Assembly (NCBI GenBank): GCA_003342815.1
Contig: PTEX01000198.1
Location: 592,130 to 656,129 of the forward strand
DNA: 64,000 nucleotides
DNA from: Eudromia elegans
Taxonomy: Eukaryota; Chordata; Aves; Tinamiformes; Tinamidae
Reading direction: 5' to 3'
In this document: positions 15,901 through 54,628 of the stretch, piece after piece
Position numbering within the stretch: the first letter of the stretch is position 1
Layout of the letters: each line of letters begins with the position of its first letter
Position numbers and translations under genes: made by a program
The notes under the pieces: model-generated
The model's database searches: none
Told to the model about the DNA's origin: nothing
The model's input: only the letters and a program-made list of their open reading frames with translations

Positions 15901-16646
15901 GCTGACCAGATGTGAAGAAAGAACTGCATTTTCACAAACACAGCCGCAGAGGTGCTACAGGATACAGACCACACAGCCACTGATCACTGAGGAGACCTAG
16001 TCTGATACACCTCGATTCTAGCCACTTCCAGTCTCCTCTTTCTTGATATCTGGTCAATGCCCATCTTGTACCAGTGGAGTTACAGTACAAGGAACAATAA
16101 ACGGCAGTGACTGGGATTCAGGAGTTCTTCANTAAAACACCTCATTTGGGAATATGAAGAACGAGTTCCTCAATCACCAGGATCTGCACCTGAACAGAAA
16201 CTAAGGGTCATCTGTCCACTCCAAGACATGATCTCATATGCAACCGAGTCATCACAGGCCACAAATATATCAGGAATAGCCTCAGGAGCTATAGGAATAG
16301 CTGATGGATGAGACAGTCTTAAAATGTTTGCAAAAGATGGAAAACACCTCTTACTCTTTGGTACTCCCCGTACATGGCTAAGTGCACGCATTGCTGAGAT
16401 GGTCTGCCTCTGTTCTTGAGCAAATCAAGGCCTAGGAGACATCATGGCCTGTATTATCCATGTGATAAACAATNATATCCATGAGTCTAATAGCTATGTC
16501 TGTTCCTCTCAAGAGGAACTGAAAATGAGATTTTGATGATTTATGAACCTACAATGAGCATTCCGTAATCTGAACTAGAAAGTCCTGAACCAAAAAATAT
16601 TTCTTACAGTAAAAGATAAACTTAAATTACTAGCAATCTTCTCTGG
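9930..16646. other. Gene-free unique DNA
   Basis: The longest frames are 155 codons at 12290-12757 on the minus strand and 130 codons at 14791-15183 on the plus strand. Neither contains a motif I recognise, and neither reads like a constrained protein. A run of 23 A lies at 11787-11809. A lone GC-box-like GGGGGCGGG occurs near 14025. A patch at about 12490-12560 faintly resembles a MIR core but is too degraded to call. About 13200-13330 has the AT-rich, low-repeat look of a conserved noncoding segment, unverified. Confidence 0.5.
11787..11809. repeat. Poly(A) tract
   Basis: Twenty-three consecutive A residues. No target-site duplication or retrocopy body was recognised upstream, so it is called a simple repeat and not the tail of a processed pseudogene. 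Confidence 0.9.
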
Positions 16647-16778
16647 TCAAATCACATAGGTCAGATTGCAGANACCTCCGGCCTATTAGTTTTAAGGTTT
16701 CACGATATAACTACTTAAATCGTGAAACCTTGAAACTAATAGGTCATAGGTCTCTGCAATCTGACCTATGTGATTTGA
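16647..16778. repeat. Long near-perfect inverted repeat (64-bp arms, 4-nt loop)
   Basis: Arms 16647-16710 and 16715-16778 are reverse complements around the loop CTAC (16711-16714). Of 64 positions I count 58 Watson-Crick pairs, two that would be G-U in RNA (16681/16744 and 16693/16732), one N (16673) and three mismatches (16678/16747, 16679/16746, 16707/16718). Pairing stops abruptly at both outer ends and no target-site duplication is apparent, so a foldback MITE is possible but unsupported. The right arm contains AGGTCA-T-AGGTCT at 16741-16753, which matches a DR1 nuclear-receptor element. Other AGGTCA/TGACCT half-sites lie at 16658 and 16762. Alternatives are a palindrome made by template switching, a hairpin-RNA locus (for either strand) or a read or assembly artefact. 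The mismatches argue somewhat against an artefact. Confidence 0.95.
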
Positions 16779-17518
16779 GATTTCTGTTGAATTTGTCAAA
16801 ATAGGNGAGATCTGAGAATGCTCATATGCCTTCATCCCACTTCATGCCAACTGCGTGCTACATAACTTCACCACTGGTAACTGCCACACACCATCACCGT
16901 TTTTATTTCTTATGGAGTTACACAATTAATTTAGCCTGGGAAAAACTAACAGCATAACCTTGTAGACATCACAGACCAAAAAAGTTAAGATCGTTCANAT
17001 GCAGAATAGTTTTTTTCTGCCCCTAGGCATAGAACACTGTGGTAGCAAGANATTCCTAGCTTATGCTACTTGACATTTCCAGATCCATTGAACCAGTTGC
17101 CTACCTCTTTCGGACGTCTGGTCTATTTCTGAATTTCTTATAGGCTCTTAACAACGAGATGATGCTAAGCAAAAGGAAAATCTTTAGAACGACAACAAAT
17201 TCATTTCTGCTCTAATTTTTGCCATGTCATCAAATGGACAGTCTCATGANTTTTGGTTAAACTTAGAGACAACTTGCCCAGGACTTCAAAATACTACAAT
17301 TTCCATTGAGTTAACGTCTTTTGGGTCTATGTCTAAATTAAAAGACTTTCAACAAGATGGAAACACTGACAGATTTCAGGCTTTTGACTTCATTCCCATA
17401 CTTAAAAGCCCACCATAGAGGGCCAGTTANGGCCTCACATGACTGCTAATCACTGCTGTGCTTCTACTGAGGAAGGAAGATGTTGATAGTTCACATTCCT
17501 AAATTTTGTGAAGGAAGG

Positions 17519-35991: not shown

Positions 35992-36069
35992 AATCATTTG
36001 AGGGATTGCATTCTGGAAGGTAACAGTCTTTAAAAATGACCGAAAAATGAGCGTGGGTCCTGGCAGGCA
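35992..36069. repeat. Local duplication, block 1 of copy A
   Basis: These 78 bp recur at 37268-37346 with one inserted base and one substitution. The copy starts at AATCATTTGAGGG and ends at CCTGGCAGGCA. Outside these limits the two loci are unrelated. Confidence 0.95.
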
Positions 36070-36274
36070 GCATCTAGACAGCAAACTTCCTGTGTGATTC
36101 TGCAGCTAAGTGAGGAAATGTAGCCTCTGGATGGATAAGAACATAATTTGGTATGAGGCAGACAGGGAGAGTCTTAGCTACAAACAGTAGCAGTAAGACC
36201 ATTATAGGAAAATGACATCTATTTCTGATCCCTTCATTCCAGAAAATACCACAAAAACAGCTAAAATTGCAGAA

Positions 36275-36330
36275 AACATAGCATACTTCTGCAAGTTAAA
36301 AAGTGAGCCTGATTGGCTGATCAAAGACTT
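36275..36330. repeat. Local duplication, block 2 of copy A
   Basis: These 56 bp recur at 37347-37402 with a single substitution (GATTGG versus GTTTGG). In copy A they lie 205 bp downstream of block 1; in copy B they are fused directly to it. Confidence 0.95.
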
Positions 36331-37267: not shown

Positions 37268-37402
37268 AATCATTTGAGGGATTGCATTCTGGAAGGTAAC
37301 AGTCTTTAAAAATGAACCGAAAAATGACCGTGGGTCCTGGCAGGCAAACATAGCATACTTCTGCAAGTTAAAAAGTGAGCCTGTTTGGCTGATCAAAGAC
37401 TT
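37268..37402. repeat. Mosaic duplication, copy B (two blocks fused)
   Basis: Positions 37268-37346 match 35992-36069 and 37347-37402 match 36275-36330, in the same order and orientation, with three differences in all over about 134 bp. The 205 bp lying between the blocks in copy A are missing. The missing piece does not have GT...AG ends on either strand (it starts GCATCT and ends GCAGAA), and only one base is shared at the junction. A spliced retrocopy is therefore not supported, and a template-switch or end-joining event is more likely. It could also be that copy A gained a 205-bp insertion. Confidence 0.95.
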
Positions 37403-38024: not shown

Positions 38025-38118
38025 GGAAAAAGGAAAAAGGAAAAAGGAAAAAGGAAAAAGGAAAAAGGAAAAAGGAAAAAGGAAAAAGGAAAAAGGAAAA
38101 AGGAAAAAGGAAAAAAGG
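38025..38118. repeat. Perfect (GGAAAAA)13 heptanucleotide array
   Basis: GG recurs every 7 bp from 38025 to 38109 without error, giving 13 identical units (38025-38115), followed by one six-A spacer and a final GG. The strand is purine-only and mirror-symmetric, the class of sequence that can form intramolecular triplex (H-DNA). Because it is perfect it is probably young and length-variable. It is open in several frames only because the unit lacks stop codons. Confidence 0.98.
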
Positions 38119-54494: not shown

Positions 54495-54628
54495 AGGAAA
54501 GAAAGGAAAGAAAGGAAAGAAAGGAAAGAAAGGAAAGAAAGGAAAGAAAGGAAAGAAAGGAAAGAAAGGAAAGAAAGGAAAGAAAGGAAGAAAGAAAAGA
54601 AAGAAAAGAAAGAAAAGAAAAGAAAAAA
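54495..54628. repeat. (GGAAAGAAA)n purine array at a gap edge
   Basis: Ten perfect 9-bp units (54496-54585) are followed by degenerate GAAA/GAAAA repeats to 54628. It is purine-only on the plus strand. The array starts at the gap, so its true length is unknown. Confidence 0.95.

Follow-up and report, generated by a model that had tools for sequence, protein, structure and literature searches.

A near-perfect 132-nt hairpin in a probable TRERF1-like intron of Eudromia elegans, probably an inverted duplication left by a single template switch

A 132-nt stretch of the Eudromia elegans genome (window positions 16647-16778; Table 1) consists of two 64-nt arms in inverted orientation around a 4-nt loop, and we propose that it is probably a single-copy inverted duplication produced by one local template-switch (snap-back) event in DNA synthesis. 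The window is the whole 64,000-nt stretch analyzed here (C110:592130-656129), taken from a 944-Mb genome of 723 contigs. On the plus strand the arms form 58 Watson-Crick and 2 G-U pairs, with 3 mismatches and 1 pair involving the N at 16673, while the minus strand gives 58 Watson-Crick pairs, 1 G-U pair and 4 mismatches in addition to the N pair. The original prediction, made from the letters alone, of a near-perfect hairpin with 64-bp arms, a tetraloop and 58 Watson-Crick plus 2 G-U pairs out of 64 is thus recovered both in its extent and in its plus-strand pairing. The arms align without indels and differ at 5 of 63 comparable sites, and the N is possibly a heterozygous position coded as such in the assembly.

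Table 1. Coordinates of the hairpin, its arm differences and the embedded motif (window positions)
Feature	Position	Strand	Remarks
Left arm	16647..16710	+	Agrees with the reverse-complemented right arm at 58/63 comparable positions
Loop, 4 nt, CTAC on the plus strand	16711..16714		Closing stem of 3 bp (TAA/TTA); the A.A mismatch (16707/16718) comes next
Right arm (left arm copied in inverted orientation)	16715..16778	-	From inverted-repeat search and arm alignment
Single N, left arm	16673		Opposite C16752
Arm difference	16673/16752		N opposite C
Arm difference	16678/16747		C.T
Arm difference	16679/16746		C.A
Arm difference	16681/16744		G.T
Arm difference	16693/16732		T.G
Arm difference	16707/16718		A.A
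DR1-like sequence AGGTCATAGGTCT	16741..16753	+	Right arm only; one letter off consensus

That the pairing lies far beyond chance, as had been claimed, is borne out by two measures. From base composition, the chance of at least 58 matches in 63 positions at one center is ~2e-28, or ~1e-17 when scaled to 944 Mb and 60 loop sizes. The computed RNA fold reaches -90.6 to -99.0 kcal/mol (the range reflecting the strand and whether G or A is substituted for the N), against means of -22.8 to -25.0 kcal/mol for shuffled hairpin controls, which places the real fold at z-scores of -17.6 to -21.8 (200 dinucleotide shuffles per case, on both strands and with the N as G or A). The proposed long stem from a transcript of either strand is accordingly predicted to be very stable in both orientations. 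A search for inverted repeats with arms up to 2,000 nt apart returns 56 pairs in the window, and among the 25 listed the next longest arms measure 32 nt (78% complementary) and 31 nt. Furthermore, an ungapped scan for arms of at least 25 nt, loops of at most 60 nt and at least 85% identity found no second hairpin in 273,260 bases (the window, 20 ten-kb loci and 3 short loci that repeat the hairpin site), and a covariance model built from the hairpin matched only itself on both strands of 274,000 bases; the background rate of such hairpins is thus sampled over ~274 kb of the 944-Mb genome.

Every genome-wide search placed the hairpin at one locus. The whole hairpin returned this locus from a single first-look candidate, the right arm did the same at E-values up to 10, 26-mers from the outer and inner halves found nothing else with up to 3 mismatches, and 1,101 bases of surrounding context likewise mapped to one place. 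Controls in the same genome behaved as repeats: a CR1-tail-like pattern, which we take to be the avian CR1 tail, gave 1,544 matches (807 forward and 737 reverse, some overlapping in tandem), in keeping with a bird genome, and a 132-base stretch beside one such match, equal in length to the hairpin, yielded 1,020 first-look candidates in the same kind of DNA search; all 40 that were scored matched at 97% identity or above. It is important to note that the genome DNA search may miss copies, as two short internal copies of 97-98% identity that are visible by BLAST elsewhere in the window were left unlisted, and a few very diverged relatives of the hairpin could escape these searches. At the hairpin edges no target duplication of at least 4 bp, the lower limit of the test (2-3 bp lies below it), is present when the boundaries are shifted by up to 10 bp each way, in keeping with the absence noted originally; 81 of 1,000 random placements show one by chance under the same conditions.

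Only 4 nt separate the second arm from the sequence of which it is the local reverse-complement copy, as expected of a template switch, and this origin is favored by the single locus, the 4-nt loop, the flank-like composition (36-38% G+C in the arms vs. 40% in the flank) and an arm length inside the published range. In the proposed event the nascent strand, folding back at the tetraloop, would have used its freshly synthesized arm as template for ~60 nt of reverse-complement copying before rejoining the original template. The hairpin would have been close to perfect at first, and later substitutions would have produced the present arm differences. The short inner stem and the mismatch that follows it could be a relic of an imperfect snap-back primer. 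Microhomology at template-switch points is frequent and not required; here an 8-mer common to the hairpin center and the left flank is unconvincing as a switch-point signature, with 15% of 2,000 random placements doing equally well. The event itself and its direction are inferred. Template switching is an already known kind of mutation, and the hairpin, so read, is another instance of it.

The arm differences also allow the proposed event to be placed in time, on the assumption that the arms were identical at birth and evolved neutrally afterwards. Five differences in 63 sites correspond to 0.042 substitutions per site per arm, which at assumed avian rates of 1.5-3e-9 substitutions per site per year gives 14-28 My (Poisson limits across this range of rates, 4-62 My). 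The template switch would thus be very roughly 4-62 million years old, and the estimate would be too young if the arms had since undergone further template switching or conversion between them.

The surroundings suggest that the hairpin is probably carried in an intron. A long minus-strand coding exon that starts with MGDQQLYKTNH is found left of the window; a pyrimidine tract and an AG (ending at C110:587,887) precede it, and it has CAG/GTATGT at its 3' boundary. An ELM2 part is found further down the same gene (Pfam PF01448, E 3.7e-11, 44.2 bits vs. a cut-off of 21.7), another downstream exon reads as zinc-finger-like, and we take the gene to be TRERF1. No further matches were returned by Pfam at cut-off for 6 protein-like frames of the window, by NCBIfam for 3 gene pieces or by a PDB sequence search with the Q-rich exon. 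Beyond the right end of the window, a CpG-rich stretch that contains a run of N (~C110:663,530-665,179) is a candidate promoter of this TRERF1-like gene. The splice acceptor and the distant CpG-rich stretch together point to a position of the hairpin in the 5' intron, ~21 kb before the start codon if the CpG-rich stretch is the promoter, so that its minus strand would be carried in the pre-mRNA; a transcription start closer to the coding exon would leave it outside the transcript. Transcription of the hairpin is therefore plausible.

Of the three origins that the original prediction had left open, the template-switch palindrome fits best, the foldback MITE is unsupported at a single locus and the hairpin-RNA gene is without an Rfam match at cut-off. 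If the hairpin were what remains of a foldback transposon or MITE, with the other copies lost or diverged beyond recognition, its long inverted arms and tiny loop would be accounted for, this being the shape of MITE-derived hairpins such as Made1/mir-548 (PMC1784062), but a transposon should leave copies and usually a target duplication; the genome search with one arm, proposed originally as the check on this option, and the edge test with its 4-bp limit found neither, with the controls working, and we regard a MITE relic as unlikely. A hairpin-capped break that was then repaired, or a foreign hairpin end that was inserted, could likewise yield an inverted repeat present once and lacking a clean target duplication; the first of these would be hard to separate from replication template switching by sequence. 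The arm G+C close to that of the flank nevertheless speaks against both, and a phage source was considered and rejected, as 16500-16950 has no match among phage records (a weak test, restricted to phage); either route appears distinctly improbable. Inverted chimeras are a known occurrence in sequencing libraries, and the palindrome could in principle be such a library or assembly artefact, but a chimera of one molecule should give near-identical arms. The 5 substitutions in 63 sites, with no indels, are evidence against it and make an artefact very improbable indeed.

A further alternative is that the hairpin is a lineage-specific functional RNA, a long-stem microRNA or a source of endogenous siRNA, kept in the intron by selection. 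The very stable fold on either strand and the probable intronic position are consistent with such a role, as is the precedent of a microRNA hairpin with a one-step origin (PMC8794818). Against it, Rfam gives 0 matches at gathering score over the whole window. A permissive search of 16640-16785 returned 27 rows, all of them microRNA families scoring at most 60% of their cut-offs, and one of 16500-16950 returned 6 (4 microRNA and 2 snoRNA), all below cut-off. The 27 rows are mostly unrelated to one another, and in the five sub-threshold alignments shown the matches are mostly pairings; membership in a known RNA family was therefore rejected, the rows (MIR837, mir-203 and mir-3036 among them) being scattered over unrelated families. 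The arm differences show no sign of maintained pairing either: a G-U pair is retained in only 2 of the 5 on the plus strand and 1 on the minus strand, so that pairing is not visibly protected. The 64-bp stem, moreover, exceeds that of the usual microRNA precursor. Taken together, these observations make a selected RNA rather doubtful, and the ~64-bp stem that the minus strand would form most likely has no selected function. A transcript of the hairpin may still be processed by Dicer or edited, and given its plausible transcription a hairpin-RNA gene stays a candidate origin. At its most specific, this idea envisages a lineage-specific hairpin-RNA locus born in one step by template switching within a TRERF1-like intron; its RNA would leave the transcript together with that intron and undergo cleavage or editing as long dsRNA. 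We consider this a long shot, and one that, if true, would be a datable instance of RNA-gene birth in birds.

The DR1 nuclear-receptor motif that had been assigned to the right arm is present there in near-consensus form, at a frequency compatible with chance. It is the only DR1 site within 1 mismatch in the window, against ~0.3 expected by uniform-base arithmetic, and 5 sites lie within 2 mismatches and none is exact; its left-arm counterpart is 3 letters plus the N off the motif. With a chance-level frequency and presence in one arm only, the motif was rejected as a functional element.

Several other features of the window and of the genome were recorded alongside. In ~274 kb made up of the window and 21 further ten-kb loci from this genome, single Ns occur at 1.2 per kb; of these 334 Ns, 52% lie in CN or NG contexts vs. 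37% for other bases, and such Ns are absent from 10 of the 21 ten-kb loci that lie beyond the window. The Ns could mark heterozygous sites, with N-free tracts reflecting homozygosity; a literature search on assembly coding of heterozygous sites found nothing. Window 37268-37402 is a composite copy of 35992-36069 (78 bp) and 36274-36330 (57 bp), 97-98% identical by BLAST and joined at ~37346. The source has no GT after its first segment, so the composite does not look spliced; it is possibly a templated insertion. When a DNA search was run across it, one locus alone was listed, without the internal copies. Two purine-rich tandem arrays are also present, one at 38025-38115 with 13 perfect copies of GGAAAAA and another at 54495-54625 that immediately follows a 390-base stretch of Ns and has 14.7 copies of AGGAAAGAA.

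Single-step long hairpins are a proposed route both to new RNA genes and to structure-prone DNA sites, and a unique, moderately diverged hairpin in a probably transcribed intron is datable and can be tested across birds. A literature search with six arm fragments returned only work on cerebellar neurons, and the titles and abstract openings on avian palindromes, chicken hairpin siRNAs and TRERF1 introns hold nothing on this locus. More loosely relevant are perfect inverted repeats, whose longest perfect human arms are put at 140 bp (PMC13155455), and the avian microinversions treated in PMC3123225.

The closest likeness is to short-range template switches as described by the four-point model in great apes (PMC7954356), which similarly leave a local reverse-complement copy beside its source, at one locus, and often form inverted repeats; like them, the sequence reported here gives a stable hairpin. 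Its ~60-nt fragment lies within the maximum of 128 given for that set, but unlike those cases its arm is far above the median of 12, its arms have diverged and its ancestral state is presumed. In a further set, from rRNA, the largest template-switch-like pattern, of 59 bp, failed quality control (PMC8794818). The same study ascribes the microRNA hairpin of MIR633 to one template-switch event, and the present hairpin resembles it in that it could have formed in one step and acquired its mismatches later; MIR633, however, is an annotated microRNA with phylogenetic support, whereas ours is known from its sequence alone. The mir-548 family, derived from Made1 elements (PMC1784062), likewise goes back to a short palindrome that can fold as RNA, but the hairpin described here, unlike that family, was found at one locus and has no target duplication of at least 4 bp.
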